In this document: positions 688 to 8,753 of the stretch, piece after piece | Layout of the letters: every line of letters begins with the position of its first letter | Position numbering within the stretch: the first letter of the stretch is position 1 | Assembly: GCF_000355695.1 (NCBI RefSeq) | Contig: NC_020891.1 | Span: 2,356,001 to 2,420,000, forward strand | Reading direction: 5' to 3' | Source: Clavibacter nebraskensis NCPPB 2581 | GTDB lineage: Bacteria; Actinomycetota; Actinomycetes; Actinomycetales; Microbacteriaceae | DNA length: 64,000 nt | The notes under the pieces: model-generated | Told to the model about the DNA's origin: nothing | What the model saw: only the letters and a program-made list of their open reading frames with translations | The model's database searches: none | Made by a program: the position numbers and the translations under genes

Positions 688-3312
688 TCAGGTCGGGATG
701 ACCTTGAAGAGCACCTTGCGCGTCACCATGAACCAGATCGCCGCCAGCACGAGGGTGTGGACCACTGCTCCCTGCCAGGGATTCGCCCTGTCGAGGAACG
801 GCAGGCTGCCGACGATCAGCACGAAGAACACGTGGACGATGAAGACGTAGAGGCTCGCGGATCCGAGCGGCGTGTAGAACCAGCCGAACGCGCGGTCGAC
901 GGGCTTCCACATCCGGGTGAGGAACGTGTACGCGACCACGAGCATCAGCGCGAGGTCGATCAGGCGCCCGGGCTGCAGGAACGTGCGCTGGTACATCGAC
1001 TCGTACAGCGACGAGTAGAGGCCGTCGGGCACTCCCGGCAGCTGCACGCCGTACGTGTGCCCGGCCCAGAGCACGGCGAGCGAGCCGACGTACGCCACCA
1101 GCCCGATCGTCACGAGCACGCGGCCCACGCGGCCGGTGAGGGCGCGCGTGATCCGCTTCCGGTAGTAGCCGATGACCATGCCGTTGAGGAACGCGACCTG
1201 CCAGGTGAGCAGCGGGAACACGTCCTCGAACATCGACGGCAGCACGCGGATGTCGAACTGCGCGTTGAGCACGTACGCGGTCCAGCTGGCGATGAGCACG
1301 ACCCACCACATGCGGCGGCGGAGCAGCCACACGATCGCGGGGACGAGGAGGGTCAGCACCACGAAGAGGCCCATGATGTTGAACACCCACGGCCCCATGC
1401 GGAGCAGCAGCAGGTCGCGGATCGCGTACCAGGGCGGCGGGTAGTCGAGCAGGCGCGCGCCGTTCGGGTAGAGGTCGTAGACCTGCCCGGTGGTGACCTT
1501 GCCGTCGGCGCCCGTGCCGCGGTCGGTGAACGTGGTGATCACGTCGGTGTCGAGGAACGGCACGAACGTGAGCGCGAAGACGATGACGACCACCGCGATC
1601 GCCACGATGTACTGCTTGAACGCGCGGCGCAGGATGGAGACGAGCGCCTTCATCTCGCCGAACTTCTTCACGGCCAGCGGGTAGACCATGCCGAGCACGA
1701 GGCCCGACAGCAACACGAACATCTCGGCGCCCGTGATCGCGCCGATGGCGTTGATGGTGACGTACGAGTAGGGGCTCGCGACCTCGATGTGGGTGATGAC
1801 CACGGCGACGATGGTCCAGCCGCGGAAGAGGTCGAGGCGGCGGTCGCGGGGCGAGTTCTCGTCGGGGTAGCGCCAGCCGGGCTTGAGGCGGCCGATGGGA
1901 CCGGAGATCACGAAGAGCAGCAGGAGCACGACCGCGCAGAGCACGATCCAGCCCATCTGCTCGTCCTCGGGGGATCCCGGGTCGCGGTACTGTGCGGTGG
2001 CGACGTTGGCGCGCTCCTGGTCGAAGACCTGCGTGACGGGGCCGAGCGTGGCGGTCGCGGGATCCAGGTGCGTGAGGAGCGCGGACGCGACCGTCGGGTC
2101 CCCCGTCGCCCGCCAGTCGATGACGATGCCCTTCGCCTCGGCCTCGGTGCGCTGGAGCTCGCGCCACACGACCATGCCGATGCCGGGGTGGGCCGACCGG
2201 ATGTCGGCGGAGAGCACCTGGCCCCACCACGCGCTCTTGATGTCGATCTCGGAGGCCCCGTCGGTGCGGGCCGGGTCGTAGAGGGCGCCCGTCTCGATGA
2301 CGGCGGGCTTGCCGGTGCCCTCGATCCACTCGGCCGCGAAGTCGCGCCCCGCGCCGCCCCGGTCGGAGTAGCCGTACGCTCCCGCGAGCTCGCGGGCGAA
2401 CTTGTCCTGCTCGGGCACGACGTTCTTCCCGAACTCCTGCTGCGGGATCACCTCGGTGCCGAGGTAGTCCTCGGTCGGCTCCCCGACGGTGAAGTCCTGC
2501 TCGGCGCCGAAGTGGGAGGCGGAGAGGCCCACCCAATCGACGGCGTCGTCGCCCGGGTAGTACGGCCGGTACGCGTCGTCGTCCACGTCGACGCGGCCGT
2601 TGCCGTCGGTGTCGAGCTCCGCGATGGAGCGGGTGGCGGAGCCCTGCGTGAGGCCGTCGGCGGATCCGAACGGGTAGCCCGCCGCGTACGCGGGCGACCA
2701 CACGGTGACGGCGCCCGCGTCGGACGCGTGCACGGCGTCGGCGACCTGGCGGAACGCGGCGATGTACGCGGTCGGCTGCTGGCCCCAGGGGGTCCACGAG
2801 CCGTTCATCTCGGGCGCGAACCGGACGAGCGTGCGGGAGTCGTAGCGCTCGCGCAGCGCCTCGAGCCGGCCCGTGAGCGCGGTCGCGTCGGCCGCGGTCA
2901 GGTCGGCGAGCGGCTTCGTCGGCTCGAGGGTGAGGAAGAGGAGCGATCCCTGCTGGGCGGCCTGCTGCGCGAACTGGTCGAGGTAGGTGACGTCGTCGGA
3001 TCCGAGCGGGTAGCGCACCGACTGGCCGAGCACCGCGGGGGTCGCCCCGAGGCGGTCGGCGTAGCTCTGCGCGTCGTCGGCGGTCCAGTCGATGATGCCG
3101 CCGAACCAGGGCGCGGCGGGTGCCCGGGTGAGGTCGACCTCGTCCGCCGGCGCCGCCGGCGCTGCGGCCGTCGGCGCGGTCGCGGCCGGCACGGCGAGCG
3201 CCGCCGTCGCCGGCACGACCACGATGGCCAGTGCCACCATTGCCGCAGCCCAGCCGCCGATCCCCCTGTGCGTGCGCCCGCCCCCGCGTGCCCGCATCCC
3301 CCCGCCGCGCAT
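688..3312 (-). CDS. GH26-like domain fused to OpgC-type membrane acyltransferase
   Basis: A protein of 874 aa, last gene of a five-gene coupled operon. Residues about 21-45 form a signal or anchor segment. Residues about 60-415 look like a glycoside hydrolase family 26-type barrel: [10 protein letters not shown] places a candidate acid/base Glu at about 168 and AVIETGAL a candidate nucleophile at about 340. An EF-hand/dockerin-like loop ([13 protein letters not shown], about 234-246) is embedded in it. A transmembrane helix at about 454-470 leads into an OpgC acyltransferase domain from about 488 ([20 protein letters not shown]) with some ten membrane helices. The start is the ATG whose A overlaps the stop of the upstream kinase gene; an alternative ATG lies five codons on. 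Likely role: trimming and acylating an envelope polysaccharide outside the membrane. Substrate unknown. Confidence 0.8.
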
Positions 3313-3770
3313 CAGCCGCGCAGCCTGACCAGCCGCCAGCGGTTGCTGCCGTCGGTGCGCTCGTAGGTGAGGTCGTCGAGGACCGCCTGCGCGAGCGCCA
3401 GCCCGCGGCCGCTCTCGCTGAGGTCGTCGGGCATGGACACGCGCGTGAGGTCGACGACGGCGGGCTGGCCGTCGTCCTCGAACAGGGCGACGATGCGGTC
3501 GTGCTGGCAGATCACGGTCATGGTGAACGTCACCGGATAGCCCGCGCGCTCCCCCACCGCGACGCCGTGCTCGACGACGTTGCCCGCGATCTCCACCACG
3601 GCCGTCTCGAACAGCATCCGCTCGGTGTCGCTCACGTCGTGCGCCTGGTCCCACACCGCGGCGATCACGGCATGCACGGCGGCGAGGCTCTCGTCCACCG
3701 CCGGGAGCGTGACGTTCGCCCGCACCGGAGGCGCGTGGTGCGTCATGCCCTCATCGGTCACGGAACACAT
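3312..3770 (-). CDS. RsbW-like anti-sigma/serine kinase ATPase
   Basis: A 152-aa protein of the GHKL (HATPase_c) type used in partner switching. The N-box (VVEIAGNVVEH, E60 and N64), the G1 box (FEDDG, about 97-101) and the glycine-rich G2 box (ESGRGLALAQ, about 119-128) are all present, so ATP binding and kinase activity are likely. It follows the STAS gene, its expected phosphorylation partner, and overlaps it by 20 nt with the ATG at 3770; a GTG at 3761 or ATG at 3746 are possible starts. No sigma factor gene is next to it, so the switch output may be a protein of this operon rather than a sigma factor. Confidence 0.85.
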   Translation of the reverse strand: MCSVTDEGMTHHAPPVRANVTLPAVDESLAAVHAVIAAVWDQAHDVSDTERMLFETAVVEIAGNVVEHGVAVGERAGYPVTFTMTVICQHDRIVALFEDDGQPAVVDLTRVSMPDDLSESGRGLALAQAVLDDLTYERTDGSNRWRLVRLRG

Positions 3771-4089
3771 CCTCGGGCGACTCGTGCACCGTGAGCACGC
3801 GGTTGAGGTTGGTGAGCTCCAGAACGGCCTTCACCTGCGCGTTTGGGCGGGCCAGGCGGAGGTCGCCGCCCGCCTGCCGGGCGCGCTTGAGGCCCGAGAC
3901 GAGGGCGCCGAGCCCCGAGGAGTCCATGAAGTCGGTGCTGCCGAGGTCCACGACGACGAAGGGCCGTCCGCCGTCGATGACCCCGGTGATGATCGTGGTG
4001 AGCTGCCGCGCGGAGACCATGTTGAGGCGGCCGGTCGGCATGACGACGCTCACGTGCGTTCCCTGCTCGTTGACTGCGATGTCGATCAT
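3751..4089 (-). CDS. STAS-domain anti-anti-sigma-like protein
   Basis: A 112-aa single-domain STAS protein (SpoIIAA/RsbV type). The conserved loop DFMDSSGLGALVSG (about 53-66) carries the serine pair that a cognate kinase phosphorylates in this family (S57 or S58). Its ATG overlaps the stop of the glycosyltransferase gene as ATGA, so translation is probably coupled. Between a glycosyltransferase upstream and an RsbW-like kinase downstream, it is the expected target of both that kinase and the PP2C phosphatase encoded first in the operon. Confidence 0.88.
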   Translation of the reverse strand: MIDIAVNEQGTHVSVVMPTGRLNMVSARQLTTIITGVIDGGRPFVVVDLGSTDFMDSSGLGALVSGLKRARQAGGDLRLARPNAQVKAVLELTNLNRVLTVHESPEDVFRDR

Positions 4090-6077
4090 GCGTCCTCCTT
4101 GGCCGGCGTGAAGCCCCGGTAGCGGGCCGCACGGATGATGATGCTGAAGATCGCCAGGTCGAAGACGACCCAGGCGAGGTTGGTGAACGTGCCGAGCGGC
4201 GTCGCCTGCCCGATCGCGAGGCGCAGCAGGCCGATCGCGGACGCGACGATGAGCGCGCCGATCACGTAGAGCTGCGGCTTCACGAGGTCGTACCGCGGCT
4301 TCCCGCTCTCGGCGCGGACCTTCGGGGTCACGGCGAAGTCGAGGGGACGGCGGAAGAAGACGTTGCCGACCGCGGTGGTGACCGACGAGATCCACACGGG
4401 GAAGAGCGCGAGGGAGTACTGCTGCCCGCGCCAGGTGCGCTTGCCGCGGCCGACCACCGCGAACAGGAGCTGGTTCACGAGGAGGAACGGGATCAGGCGG
4501 CTGAAGAAGTCCGTCGAGAGCGCCTGCACCGGGAGCACGCCGAAGACGAGGTAGATGATGGGCGCCGCCACGTAGACGAGCGCCGTGAAGCCGGAGAAGT
4601 AGCTCCACATCGTGGCGAAGTACATGAGGCGCTGCGGGATCGAGAGCGCCTTCTGCAGCAGCGGGTTCTCGCGGAAGAACACCTGGATCGTGCCCTGCGC
4701 CCAGCGGAGCCGCTGGGTGAGCATGGTCGGCAGGTCCTCCGGCGCGAGCCCGAACGCGAGGACCTCGTCGTGGTACGCCGACTTCCAGCCGAGCCCGTGC
4801 AGGCGCATGCAGGTGGCCATGTCCTCGGTGACGGAGATGGTGGCCAGCGGCATGATCGACTGCGCGTCGTCGTCGCGGTGCACGTCGATGTCGCGGACGA
4901 TGGCGCGCACGGCGTCGAGCGCCCCGAGCGGCGACCAGTCGCGCTGCGCGAGGCGCGTCATGGCGCTCTCGTCGACGAGCGAGACCGCGTCGCGCTCGGC
5001 GGAGTGGCGGCCGGCCAGCGCGGCGATCTCGGCGAGGTCGGCGTGGAGGGCGGCCATGTCGTCCTGCACCATGCGGGCGGCGATGGAGTCGACGCGCTTC
5101 TGGAAGCGGTAGGTCACGTCCGCCAGCGCCTGGCCGCGGCGGAGCTCGGCACGGGCGCGGCGCACGTCGTAGGCGACGTCGTCGAGCGCCTTGCGGAGAT
5201 CCAGCTGGTCGGGCTCGAGCTCCTGGCGCGCTTTGTCGATCACGTCCCCCGCGGTGCGGAGCGCGCGGAACACGCTGATCTCGATGTCGGTCACGTACCG
5301 CGAGACGCCGAGGAGCATGAGGGCCTCGCGGCGGAGGATCGCGTTCGATCCGCAGAAGAACGCCGCGTTCCAGCCGTCCTTGCCCTGCTGGATGGGGCCG
5401 TAGAACAGCGGCGCCTGGCTGCCGAGCGGATCCGAGTCCGGCACGTTCACGAACACCTGCGGCGTCTGCACGATCGCCATGCGCCGGTCGTCGAAGTAGC
5501 CGAGCGTCTTGTCGAGGATCTCGGGCACGGGCACCTGGTCGGCGTCGAGGATGAGCATGAACTCGCCCTCGGTCGTGAGCAGCGCGTTGTTGAGGTTGCC
5601 GGCCTTCGCGTGGCGCGCGCGGCCCGACCAGTCGGCCGAGCGGGTGATCCAGCCGATGCCCTCCGCCTCGGCGAGGTCGCGGAGCTCGGTGCGGTTGCCG
5701 TCGTCGAGCACCCACGTCTTGTGCAGGTAGGTGATGCGCTGGGCGGCGCGCGCGGTCTCCATCACGAGGTCGAGGGGCTCGTTGTACGTCGCGATGAACA
5801 CGTCGACCGTGAGGCCCGGCTGCGGCGCCGGCGGCTTCGGACGGTCGCGGGCTTGCCACATCGTGAGCCCGAACAGGAGCGAGTCGATGAGGCTGTACGT
5901 CTCGGCGAGCACGAGCGGGATGGCGATCCAGAGCGCCTCGGGGTTCACCGAGAACAGCAGGCGCCAGACGATGTAGTTGAGGCCGAGGAGCGCCGTCACC
6001 ACGGCGAGCAGGCGGATGAACGCGAAGCGCAGCGGCGACCGGCCCGTGGTCGGCGCGCGGTGCGTCGAGCGGCTCAC
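4086..6077 (-). CDS. Cellulose-synthase-like family 2 glycosyltransferase with a large helical insertion
   Basis: A 663-aa integral membrane processive GT2. Two N-terminal helices (about 19-42 and 48-72) precede the catalytic domain with DDG (125-127), DAD (178-180), TED (417-419) and QRLRW (455-459), the set that defines BcsA-like enzymes; four or more helices follow (about 485-645). In BcsA the FCGS..LRR segment is followed almost directly by TED, but here about 148 charged, helix-prone residues (about 265-412) are inserted between them. No PilZ domain is visible at the C-terminus, so c-di-GMP control of the BcsA kind is not indicated. The GTG start overlaps the phosphatase stop (GTGA). Product polymer is unknown. 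Confidence 0.88.
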   Translation of the reverse strand: MSRSTHRAPTTGRSPLRFAFIRLLAVVTALLGLNYIVWRLLFSVNPEALWIAIPLVLAETYSLIDSLLFGLTMWQARDRPKPPAPQPGLTVDVFIATYNEPLDLVMETARAAQRITYLHKTWVLDDGNRTELRDLAEAEGIGWITRSADWSGRARHAKAGNLNNALLTTEGEFMLILDADQVPVPEILDKTLGYFDDRRMAIVQTPQVFVNVPDSDPLGSQAPLFYGPIQQGKDGWNAAFFCGSNAILRREALMLLGVSRYVTDIEISVFRALRTAGDVIDKARQELEPDQLDLRKALDDVAYDVRRARAELRRGQALADVTYRFQKRVDSIAARMVQDDMAALHADLAEIAALAGRHSAERDAVSLVDESAMTRLAQRDWSPLGALDAVRAIVRDIDVHRDDDAQSIMPLATISVTEDMATCMRLHGLGWKSAYHDEVLAFGLAPEDLPTMLTQRLRWAQGTIQVFFRENPLLQKALSIPQRLMYFATMWSYFSGFTALVYVAAPIIYLVFGVLPVQALSTDFFSRLIPFLLVNQLLFAVVGRGKRTWRGQQYSLALFPVWISSVTTAVGNVFFRRPLDFAVTPKVRAESGKPRYDLVKPQLYVIGALIVASAIGLLRLAIGQATPLGTFTNLAWVVFDLAIFSIIIRAARYRGFTPAKEDA

Positions 6078-7270
6078 GCGCGGCTCACGGCGAGGACGGT
6101 CACGTCGTCGAGCGGCGTGCCGGCGGACGCGAGGATGCGGACCCGCTCGATGAGCGCCTTCACGCCACCGGCCTCCGTCACGAGCCGGCCGATGGCCCCG
6201 AACGCGGGATCGCTGCCGCCGAACATGTCGAAGAGGCCGTCGCTGAAGGTCACGAGGGTGTCACCGTGCCCGAGCACCACGTGGCGCTCCTCCCAGCGGT
6301 GGTCGGCGTCGATGCCGACGGGGAGGTCGCTCGTGTCCAGGTGGGTGACGCGGCCGTCGGGGTGCACGATGATCGTCAGCCCGTGCCCGGCGTCGGCGTA
6401 GCGGAGGAGCCCGGTGGCCTGGTCGAGGTGCCCGTGCTGCAGGGTGACGAACGAGCCCGTGCGGTCGAGGTCGGCGTCGAGCGAGCGCGCCGCGTCGGTG
6501 ACCATGAGGCCCGTGTCCTCGAGGACGCCCGCGCCGTAGCGGTCGGCCGTGCTCGCGATGCCGCGGAGGACGGCGCGGACCGTGGCGGTGAGGATCGCGG
6601 CGCCGGTGCCCTTCCCCATCACGTCGGCGATGGAGAAGCGGAGGCCGGAGGCGGTGCGCTCGTAGTCGTAGAAGTCGCCGCCCACGACCTGCGCGGGCAC
6701 GCACACGGCGGCGATCTCGTAGCCGGGGATCTCGACCTCGGCGGCCGGCAGGAGCGCGGACTGCACGGCCTGGGCGCGGTCCATCTCGACGCTCGCGACG
6801 AGCTCGCGCTGCACCCACTCGGCGAGCTCGGCGAACAGCACGAGCTGGCCGGCGTCGAGGCCGCGCGGCTCCACGTCGTAGAGGCAGAACGTGCCGATGA
6901 CGAGGCCCTCGGGATCCCGCAGCGGATGCCCGGCGTAGAAGCGGATGTGCGGCTCGCCCGCGACGGTGGGCAGGTGGCGGAACACGGGATGGGCCCGCGC
7001 GTCCTCGACGATGAGCACGCGCTCCTCGCGTACGGTGGTGTCGCAGAAGACGCTGCTGATGGGCGTCTCCGACAGCTCGGCCCCCGCGCACGAGGCGAAC
7101 CACATGCGGTCGAGGTCGGCGAGGCCGATGGTCGACAGCGGCACGGCGAAGGCCGTGCGGGCGAGGCGCGTGACGCGGTCGAAGCGCTCCTCGGGCGGGC
7201 CGTCGAGCAGCCCCAGGGCCTCCACGGCGCGCTGCGCCGCGATCACCCGTGCGTCCTCGATCAGAGTCAT
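6074..7270 (-). CDS. GAF-domain SpoIIE-type PP2C serine phosphatase
   Basis: First gene of the leftward five-gene operon; 398 aa. Residues about 28-155 form a GAF sensor domain (VFCDTTV, FYAGHPLRDP, GTFCLYD). Residues about 165-395 form a SpoIIE/RsbU PP2C catalytic domain: GGDFYD (197-202) and DVMGKG (216-221) give metal-binding aspartates, and FSDGLFDMFGG lies near the C-terminus. Expected role is dephosphorylation of the STAS protein encoded two genes downstream in response to a GAF ligand. I chose the ATG at 7270, which follows GAGGGG; an open frame 14 codons longer lacks support. Confidence 0.88.
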   Translation of the reverse strand: MTLIEDARVIAAQRAVEALGLLDGPPEERFDRVTRLARTAFAVPLSTIGLADLDRMWFASCAGAELSETPISSVFCDTTVREERVLIVEDARAHPVFRHLPTVAGEPHIRFYAGHPLRDPEGLVIGTFCLYDVEPRGLDAGQLVLFAELAEWVQRELVASVEMDRAQAVQSALLPAAEVEIPGYEIAAVCVPAQVVGGDFYDYERTASGLRFSIADVMGKGTGAAILTATVRAVLRGIASTADRYGAGVLEDTGLMVTDAARSLDADLDRTGSFVTLQHGHLDQATGLLRYADAGHGLTIIVHPDGRVTHLDTSDLPVGIDADHRWEERHVVLGHGDTLVTFSDGLFDMFGGSDPAFGAIGRLVTEAGGVKALIERVRILASAGTPLDDVTVLAVSRA

Positions 7271-7444
7271 CCCCGCCCCTCGCCGACGTGGACCCCCGTC
7301 CACGGCACCCAAAACCTAGGGTGCGTTCAGCTTACGTGGCCGGATCCATAGGGGACGTACCAAGTAGCGCTACGCGGACGACACCGGTGGTCGTCCCAGT
7401 GGTCGCCGACCGGCTGCTAGCGTCGGGAGCCGATCGGGGGCCTC

Positions 7445-8599
7445 ATGGCATCAGCACGACGACCGGAGCTCCCCTACCTCGACGGCATGCGCGGCGCCGC
7501 CGCCCTCGCCGTGGTCGCGTTCCACGCGTTCCTCTACACGGGGATCACCGGGCAGGCCTGGCGCGACCTGCCTCTCCTCGGCTGGATCACCGGCTACGGC
7601 TACCTCGGCGTGCCCGTCTTCATCGTCCTGTCCGGCTACGTGCTCATGCTCCCCGTCGCCGGCCGCCCGGGGCTCGACCTCCGGCACGGCACCGCGACCT
7701 TCCTCCGACGGCGTGCCCGGCGGATCCTGCCGCCCTACTTCGCCGCCCTCGCGCTCAGCCTGCTGATGGCGCTCGCGATCCCCGTGATGCGCGACGGCGG
7801 CGGCACCGCGTGGGAGAGCGCCGCGCCCGCCACCCCCGCCGGCATCGTGTCCCACGTCCTCCTGCTCCAGGACCTCTCCCCGGAATGGGTCAGCCAGGTG
7901 AACGCGCCGCTCTGGAGCGTCGCCGTGGAGTGGCAGATCTACTTCCTCATGCCGCTGGTGCTGCTGCCGCTGTGGCGGCGCTGGGGCGGGCTGCCCGTCG
8001 TCTTCGCCGCCACGGTGGTCACGACCGGCGCGTCGCTCGCGGGCGTCGCGCCATGGGCGTGCCCGTGGCTCCTGGGCCTCTTCGCCGCCGGGATGCTCGC
8101 CGCCGAGCTCACCGTCGGCGCGCGCCCGCGCTGGGCGTCCGACCGGCTGCTGCTCGCGGTGGCCGTGGGCGCCGCGGCCGTGCTGCTCCTCGGGATCACA
8201 GAGCTGCAGGACAGCGTCTGGGCCGCCGAGCTCGTCGCCGGTGCGGGCTTCGCGGCGCTCCTCGCCTGGGCGGGCGCGCGCACCATGGCCGGGTCCCGCC
8301 CCCGCGCCCTCGGCGCCTTTGTCACCCGCCCGGCGCAGCGGATCGGCCTCGTCTCCTACAGCGTCTACCTCGTGCACAGCCCGTTCCTGGCGCTCGGCAA
8401 CCTCCTGCTGCTGCCGCTCGGCCTGCCGACGGGCGCGCACGCCGCGCTGATGCTGCTGGTCGTCGCGCCGCTGGCGGTCGCGGCCGGCTTCGGCTTCTTC
8501 CACCTCGTGGAGCGGCACTTCCTCAACACGCGCCAGGCGCACGTGACGGAGGCGGCGGATCCGGATGCGGCGCCCGTGGCGCCCAAGCCCGCGGCCTGA
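7445..8599 (+). CDS. Acyltransferase family 3 (OafA/YrhL-like) membrane protein
   Basis: A 384-aa polytopic protein of the acyltransferase-3 family. It opens with the typical LPYLDGMRGAAALAVVAFHAF segment (family motif R-G-x-A with a nearby catalytic-type His), followed by about ten hydrophobic helices and a late SYSVYLVHSP motif. Such enzymes transfer acetyl or other acyl groups to surface sugars. It is divergent from the phosphatase/glycosyltransferase operon, so it may modify the same envelope polymer. Upstream lies TAGCGT (7418-7423), a -10-like hexamer, and a short leader with a G-rich ribosome-binding site. Confidence 0.85.
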   Translation: MASARRPELPYLDGMRGAAALAVVAFHAFLYTGITGQAWRDLPLLGWITGYGYLGVPVFIVLSGYVLMLPVAGRPGLDLRHGTATFLRRRARRILPPYFAALALSLLMALAIPVMRDGGGTAWESAAPATPAGIVSHVLLLQDLSPEWVSQVNAPLWSVAVEWQIYFLMPLVLLPLWRRWGGLPVVFAATVVTTGASLAGVAPWACPWLLGLFAAGMLAAELTVGARPRWASDRLLLAVAVGAAAVLLLGITELQDSVWAAELVAGAGFAALLAWAGARTMAGSRPRALGAFVTRPAQRIGLVSYSVYLVHSPFLALGNLLLLPLGLPTGAHAALMLLVVAPLAVAAGFGFFHLVERHFLNTRQAHVTEAADPDAAPVAPKPAA

Positions 8600-8613
8600 G
8601 CGGCCCGCCGTAT

Positions 8614-8691
8614 TGGTGCCCCCGCAGGGACTCGAACCCTGACCTGTAGCGATTTTAAGTCGCCCGTCTCTGCCAATTGGACTACGGGGGC
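8614..8691 (-). tRNA. tRNA-Leu (anticodon UAA)
   Basis: A full cloverleaf reads leftward from 8691. It has a 7-bp acceptor stem GCCCCCG/CGGGGGC, a D arm containing TTGGCAGA, anticodon stem GGCGA/TCGCT with loop CTTAAAA (anticodon UAA), T arm CAGGG-TTCGAGT-CCCTG, discriminator A and an encoded CCA (8614-8616). The variable region is only about 6 nt (ACAGGT), which is class I geometry, although leucine tRNAs usually have a long class II variable arm. It would read the rare UUA codon. Confidence 0.9.
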
Positions 8692-8753
8692 GTGGCGCCG
8701 GGGCGCTCCCGACAGCCTACGGTCGCGGCGCGGGACCGATGTGCCCGGGCATG

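Follow-up and report, generated by a model that had tools for sequence, protein, structure and literature searches.

Known Partner Switches and BcsA-Like Synthases

In the RsbU-RsbV-RsbW and SpoIIE-SpoIIAA-SpoIIAB systems of Bacillus, a PP2C phosphatase, a STAS protein with the motif D-S-[ST]-G, and a HATPase_c_2 kinase are encoded together. We found similar components together with a BcsA-like processive glycosyltransferase (GT) in a five-gene operon of Clavibacter nebraskensis NCPPB 2581, within a stretch of 64,000 nucleotides (nt) from contig NC_020891.1 (positions 2,356,001 to 2,420,000; hereafter the window, to which the feature coordinates refer). The operon differs from the Bacillus systems in having no sigma factor gene and in its core order of GT-STAS-kinase, and a strong SigB/F/G match is missing from 22 genomes that carry the complete module. 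Judging from gene order and motifs, we lean, with a confidence slightly above even, towards a partner-switching module whose output would be the synthase, with the STAS protein as its regulatory partner set by the kinase and phosphatase. The synthase itself is most likely the output of the switch, as far as the sequences indicate.

Several described systems resemble parts of this arrangement (PMC sources are cited here for the excerpts concerned). SypA/SypE of Vibrio fischeri and HmpU/V/W of Nostoc include non-canonical STAS proteins that are tied to polysaccharide and active when unphosphorylated, and the excerpted text of a 2021 review calls the targets of SypA and HmpV unknown (PMC8256260). 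In contrast, a candidate target, the synthase, adjoins the STAS gene in the present arrangement and is once fused to it. Direct binding of an enzyme by a switch protein, which we suppose here, is described for HsbA-HsbD (PMC6482189) and SiaC-SiaD (PMC8457831) of Pseudomonas, but the enzyme in those cases is a diguanylate cyclase and not a synthase. The Anabaena protein all4160 combines STAS and a glycosyltransferase in one chain, although its STAS is N-terminal and the likeness is one of description rather than sequence (PMC8256260). Literature searches of open-licence PMC papers found no description of a partner switch acting on such a synthase.

The cellulose synthase BcsA, which is gated by cyclic di-GMP (c-di-GMP), shares with the GT its catalytic motifs, gating loop, and latch glutamate (PMC10374906). 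In BcsA, the FxVTxK motif sits in the gating loop, and c-di-GMP frees this loop by breaking the link between PilZ Arg580 and Glu371 (PMC10374906, PMC5567048). The GT differs from BcsA in having no PilZ, in carrying an insert before the TED motif, and in having a STAS protein (or a fused STAS) in PilZ’s stead. BgsA of Sinorhizobium meliloti is also a BcsA-like synthase with FxVTxK and, in the excerpt concerned, without PilZ; however, BgsA has its own c-di-GMP-binding C-terminus (PMC5567048), whereas the C. nebraskensis genome has no GGDEF match. If true, our proposal would mean that BcsA-like synthases can be gated in a third manner, in addition to c-di-GMP/PilZ and the control seen in BgsA. 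Partner switches would then act on a membrane enzyme in genomes without a strong match to a SigB-type sigma factor or a diguanylate cyclase, which would show what these switches do when no transcription factor is the target. As many actinomycete genera have the likely target adjoining the switch, with one case of fusion to the STAS, the proposal is testable with few purified proteins.

Organization of the Operon

The operon lies on the minus strand at window positions 688-7270. Direct reading of the open reading frames (ORFs) confirmed its existence and, together with Pfam, bore out the five-gene order, overlaps, and domain identities (other than GH26) given in a preliminary description of this DNA. 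The genes, together with the expected phosphorylation site, are as follows.

6074..7270, minus strand: GAF + SpoIIE/PP2C-type serine phosphatase, 398 amino acids (aa), ATG start (ORF and Pfam)
4086..6077, minus strand: BcsA-like family-2 processive glycosyltransferase (GT), 663 aa, GTG start (Pfam Cellulose_synt, phmmer)
3751..4089, minus strand: single-domain STAS protein, 112 aa, ATG start (Pfam STAS)
3919..3921, minus strand: codon of STAS Ser57, the expected phospho-acceptor, in the motif D-S-S-G (from the sequence)
3312..3770, minus strand: RsbW-like serine kinase (HATPase_c_2), 152 aa, ATG start (Pfam)
688..3312, minus strand: GH26-like + OpgC-type acyltransferase fusion, 874 aa, ATG start (Pfam OpgC_C, weak phmmer)

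Along the operon the genes overlap by 4, 4, 20, and 1 nt, and the 20 becomes 11 or none with the alternative kinase starts (GTG at 3761 and ATG at 3746); an upstream TTG at 7312 is a possible alternative start of the phosphatase gene. Chance clustering is unlikely, given only three STAS matches in the 3.06 Mb of this genome. The Pfam matches are SpoIIE (101 bits) and GAF (53 bits) for the phosphatase, Cellulose_synt (69 bits) for the GT, STAS (62.5 bits), and HATPase_c_2 (46 bits) for the kinase, and the GT matches solved BcsA structures with a best phmmer E-value of 1.9e-62. We take Ser57, the first serine after the Asp, to be the acceptor by analogy with SpoIIAA and RsbV, and the phosphatase, the presumed input of the switch, would dephosphorylate the STAS protein. 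No sigma factor gene was found in the operon by ORF reading and Pfam, and the earlier statement that none is present therefore holds at this scale; the genome does hold a SigB-like sigma factor ∼0.39 Mb away.

Conservation of the Synthase-Linked Switch

In the family, 25 of 150 genomes contain a relative of the GT at E 1e-40; at E 1e-60, and with the C. nebraskensis genome included, the figures are 24 of 396 genomes for the order and 2 of 396 for the phylum. A GTDB genome scan gave at least 545 relatives. The best 80 were retained, and 77 of these belong to 14 named families. Among the matches listed, the closest named relatives are from Clavibacter (97% and 95% identity). The GT is present in all 18 genomes of the genus, and the PP2C, GT, STAS, kinase, and start of the GH26-like gene occur in identical order in 10/10 new genus loci from these genomes (1.5 kb flanks). 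Spread of the module by plasmids was considered and rejected, as there was no plasmid match at 1e-60.

We then scored the genes flanking 136 GT loci with profile hidden Markov models built from the loci. Downstream of the GT, 106 loci have STAS and kinase, 12 kinase only, 11 STAS only, and 7 neither. Dropping repeats (L093 = L088, L094 = L087) and counting the fusion L063 as STAS left 133 distinct GTs, with STAS then kinase directly downstream in 105, STAS only in 10, kinase only in 12, and neither in 6. STAS is thus adjacent to 115 of the 133 (one fusion included) and the kinase to 117. The first aligned STAS residue lies 1-218 nt past the GT stop (median 32). As a control, we used an insert-less paralogue as query for other family-2 glycosyltransferases (GT2s) in the 49 GT-bearing genomes, which gave 15 matches, 11 of them with DNA; none of these 11 has a STAS, kinase, PP2C, GH26-like, or OpgC match within 1.5 kb. 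The preliminary description had held that its idea of direct control would fail if homologous operons often lacked the switch genes. This check did not refute it, as 127 of the 133 distinct GTs keep STAS, kinase, or both. The same description had named the synthase or the acyltransferase as the output: the linkage counts and the natural fusion point to the synthase, but the acyltransferase was rejected as a target because OpgC lies within 4.5 kb of the GT in only 23 of the 71 complete loci with enough flank.

In loci with both genes, the linked switch proteins keep the motifs of a canonical partner switch. The DS[ST]GL motif occurs in the STAS of 106/106 loci having STAS and kinase, and loose patterns recovered the N box in 117, D-x-G (G1) in 117, and GRG (G2) in 118 of the 118 adjacent kinases. 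PP2C is found within 4.5 kb of the GT in 69/71 complete loci, 0/9 kinase-only loci, and 0/5 switch-less loci with enough flank; from the difference between complete and kinase-only loci, the presence of PP2C tracks that of STAS. In 10 scanned PP2Cs, the N-terminal input domain is GAF in four (one of them a kinase-GAF-PP2C fusion) and a response-regulator receiver in five, and none was recognized in one. Control by a GAF ligand, as first described, is thus too narrow, fitting only the four GAF-bearing phosphatases.

A BcsA-Type Gate Without PilZ

Three features extend the preliminary description, viz. an insert in the GT, an FxVTxK gating motif without PilZ, and a kinase-less clade. The features within the GT are located as follows.

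4830..5306, minus strand: insert, GT residues ∼258-416, between the CGSNAxxRR motif and TED (BcsA alignments split here)
4737..4739, minus strand: GT Glu447, aligned with the BcsA gate-latch Glu371 (alignment to 4hg6)
4320..4337, minus strand: FAVTPK, the FxVTxK gating-loop motif, GT residues 581-586 (motif comparison)

BcsA aligns to the GT as two blocks, which separate between residue 257 and TED (417-419). The stretch from CGSNxxxRR to TED measures 91-172 residues in the 126 class I GTs (median 158), 116-123 residues in the seven class II GTs (median 116), and 7 residues in four other GT2 proteins. From a reading of its sequence, the insert is probably helical, and it is a candidate docking site for STAS or the kinase. 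By pattern counts in the 126 class I GTs, the catalytic motifs DxD and TED are present in all and QxxRW in 124. The gating motif FxVTxK is kept in 133/133 GTs (126/126 class I, 7/7 class II) and in 0/4 other GT2 proteins, and Glu447 is at least 90% conserved (56 GTs). No PilZ match was found in the four GTs scanned, and the tail from the FxVTxK motif to the stop has a median of 84 residues. The gate motif and latch glutamate being kept and PilZ gone, a BcsA-type gate appears to be retained without its usual operator. Our guess is that the polymer is a beta-glucan, for example cellulose or mixed-linkage glucan.

A Clade Without the Kinase

Class II consists of seven GTs (L063, L064, L087, L088, L090, L091, and L092) that form a sister clade to all other GTs, with local SH-like supports of 93 and 92 and a distant outgroup. 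In every one of them a STAS follows the GT or is fused to it, and no kinase was found nearby, in flanks of ∼8 kb per side for L063 and L064 and of 1.5 kb for L087, L088, L090, L091, and L092. Each of the seven STAS has other residues in place of the Asp and the phospho-acceptor Ser of D-S-S-G (VTPAG, VTAAG, VSPSG, VGASG), the aligned motif of L064 being VTAAG. L063 is a single frame of 830 aa comprising the GT and a C-terminal STAS (26.3 bits against a Pfam cut-off of 22.6), which occupies the place where BcsA has PilZ; in G469 and G352, the STAS lies in the frame of the GT after one TGA. The genomes of L063 (G133) and L064 (G118) have two weak PF13581 matches each, all of which were examined and none of which resembles the kinase of the operon; G375 and G416 have more such matches, of which 4 of 15 were examined.

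The link between STAS and GT hence persists where phosphorylation cannot act, and STAS looks like the direct partner of the GT. This pattern is expected if STAS is the GT’s own partner and is hard to explain if STAS only holds an anti-sigma factor. An inhibitor that is permanently locked would serve no use, so the locked state probably corresponds to activity, and unphosphorylated STAS should then be the activating state. The same persistence of a STAS without any phospho-site, together with the reported binding of GTP/ATP by SpoIIAA (PMC8256260), could suggest that STAS acts as a subunit of the synthase with a structural or nucleotide-binding role, the kinase and phosphatase having some other purpose and synthesis not being switched on and off. 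However, the complete loci keep the phospho-motif (106/106), the kinase motifs (117-118 of 118), and a nearby PP2C (69/71), which makes this explanation very improbable.

Class II also bears on a second alternative, in which the GT takes the place of the sigma factor: the kinase itself would bind the GT and block it, and unphosphorylated STAS would draw the kinase off and free the GT. RsbW-type anti-sigma factors work by this geometry (PMC8256260). The 12 kinase-only loci, which form one clade (100% support) and of which the ten named ones are all Curtobacterium, keep the kinase by the GT, with a STAS-RsbW pair elsewhere in 5/5 searched genomes. Yet in class II it is the STAS that stays by the GT, once fused, with neither an adjoining kinase nor a phospho-serine, a point that extends over wide flanks for 2/7 loci and 1.5 kb for the rest. 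We regard blocking by the kinase as rather unlikely, though it is the most probable of the alternatives.

Proposed Mechanism

From the gene order, motifs, insert, loss pattern, and fusion observed, we infer the binding, phosphorylation, docking site, and direction of control as follows. Unphosphorylated STAS would bind the synthase, probably via the insert beside the active site, and make it productive. Phosphorylation of Ser57 by the RsbW-like kinase would strip STAS off, and the synthase would close; removal of the phosphate by the GAF-PP2C phosphatase would reopen it. The phosphatase input would be a small molecule in Clavibacter and would come through a receiver domain in other genera. In the kinase-less clade, STAS would have lost its phospho-site and would stay attached to the synthase.

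More broadly, these GTs may represent a family of processive beta-glycan synthases whose BcsA-type gate is run by a reversibly phosphorylated STAS instead of c-di-GMP/PilZ, with a helical insert as the docking site, swappable GAF or receiver inputs, and a ‘locked’ branch, derived or ancestral, in which STAS has lost its phospho-site and in one case became fused at PilZ’s place. We give this wider picture an even chance of being correct.

Contrary Observations and Alternative Outputs

A number of observations weigh against the synthase as output. Co-localization of the switch genes and the GT may be only co-expression. Curtobacterium keeps the kinase, and not STAS, beside the GT, and three Arthrobacter GTs keep the insert with neither STAS nor kinase adjoining. 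The supports of the class II clade are below the mark of 95, which allows for either gain or loss of the kinase. Phylogenetic trees of STAS and kinase, built on few columns and poorly resolved, put stand-alone copies among the GT-linked ones; with no separate GT-linked clade, the GT-linked STAS is without visible specialization. When coupling was analyzed across the three proteins GT, STAS, and kinase, with 106 rows of effective number 65 and the 2000 strongest pairs scored, GT-STAS was not favored above other pairs, the rates per 1000 possible pairs being 7.3 for GT-STAS, 7.5 for STAS-kinase, and 9.1 for GT-kinase. As STAS-kinase, a pair expected to touch, was not prominent, this analysis is powerless and supports no interface. 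To these are added the sigma factors and GGDEF matches considered below.

The remaining exceptions follow a pattern. Among the six GTs with neither STAS nor kinase, three are the Arthrobacter clade just mentioned, with a PP2C-STAS-RsbW set elsewhere in 2/2 searchable genomes (of three); two are extra copies (L089, whose genome also has the complete L082, and L128, with the complete L144); and one (L163) ends with its contig, so that its score is uninformative. Three class I loci (L049, L053, and L083) have STAS with no kinase after it and keep the DS[ST]GL motif. In L053, another STAS and a fusion of kinase and PP2C lie upstream of the GT, and the genome of L049 (G026) holds another STAS-kinase-PP2C set.

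A sigma factor is the canonical output of such switches, and the switch could control one encoded elsewhere, the operon with the synthase being merely shared. The SigB-like sigma factor of the C. nebraskensis genome (225.5 bits against an NCBIfam cut-off of 234), ∼0.39 Mb from the operon, could obey the operon’s switch or a second one (locus L065), and many of the 49 GT-bearing genomes have weaker sigma-70 relatives (∼80-136 bits). A SigBFG match better than 1e-50 is, however, present in only 19 of the 49 and absent from 30, 22 of which have a complete module; in 8/8 of these 30 genomes that were sampled, the best sigma match is the primary sigma factor (judged by eye). Control of a distant sigma factor would also leave the STAS-GT fusion and the kinase-less clade unexplained, and we deem it improbable.

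The SigB-like gene lies at ∼7045-8031 of L214 (G000:C1:2748500-2764000) and has regions 2, 3, and 4. No STAS or RsbW match was found in the 15.5 kb around it, and its regulator is not evident. The second partner-switch locus of the same genome, L065 (G000:C1:2815000-2831000), spans 5016-8719 and encodes a STAS, an RsbW-like kinase, and a pair of SpoIIE phosphatases, one of which carries GAF; no GT match was found in the 16 kb.

Baena 2019, cited in PMC8546604, reportedly describes a partner switch that controls the mixed-linkage glucan of S. meliloti and, by its title, works with c-di-GMP. On this precedent, the present switch might work via a diguanylate cyclase and c-di-GMP, and GGDEF matches occur in 32 of the 49 GT-bearing genomes. 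HsbA-HsbD of Pseudomonas is a further precedent (PMC6482189). Nevertheless, no GGDEF match was found at 1e-10 in 17/49 genomes, including that of C. nebraskensis and both congeners in the set, and no PilZ in the four scanned GTs; we consider this route scarcely credible. For the C. nebraskensis genome itself it is excluded by the absence of a GGDEF match, unless the genome encodes a GGDEF protein that has diverged beyond the reach of the model. Both SigBFG and GGDEF matches are absent from 13/49 genomes, seven of which carry a complete module (G035, G042, G137, G243, G234, G341, and G370). With so many GT-bearing genomes lacking a strong SigB-type match or a GGDEF match, neither a SigB-type sigma factor nor a cyclase can be the general output.

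Accessory Enzymes, Neighboring Genes, and Variant Loci

The last gene of the operon probably encodes an accessory polymer-modifying enzyme, optional and outside the conserved core. Its C-terminal half matches OpgC_C (PF10129) with 176.8 bits against a cut-off of 21.4. No Pfam model matched the N-terminal half, even at E 10; its reading as GH26-like draws on a weak phmmer match to the solved Endoglucanase H of C. thermocellum (E 1.7e-4) and on kin beside GTs elsewhere, one of which matches PF02156 (48 bits). A GH26-like domain was found in 30 of the 71 complete loci with enough flank.

Adjoining the operon, a divergent Acyl_transf_3 gene (window 7445-8599, plus strand; Pfam 123 bits) possibly encodes a further polymer-modifying enzyme. 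A tRNA-Leu gene (anticodon taa) lies directly past it (8614-8691, minus strand).

Some loci of other genomes are more elaborate. In L053 and L062 (G074 and G137), a STAS and a kinase-PP2C fusion precede the GT, and the GT’s own STAS follows it, giving two STAS per locus; in the fusion of L062, GAF lies between kinase and PP2C. Arthrobacter sp. ISL-30 carries a tandem pair of GT-STAS-kinase units with a GH26-like gene between them (L144), and also an additional orphan GT (L128) that has a GH26 neighbor. The GT of L115, labeled Kitasatospora arboriphila NRRL B-24581, clusters tightly with Williamsia, far from its label, which suggests either a transfer or a contaminated or mislabeled record.

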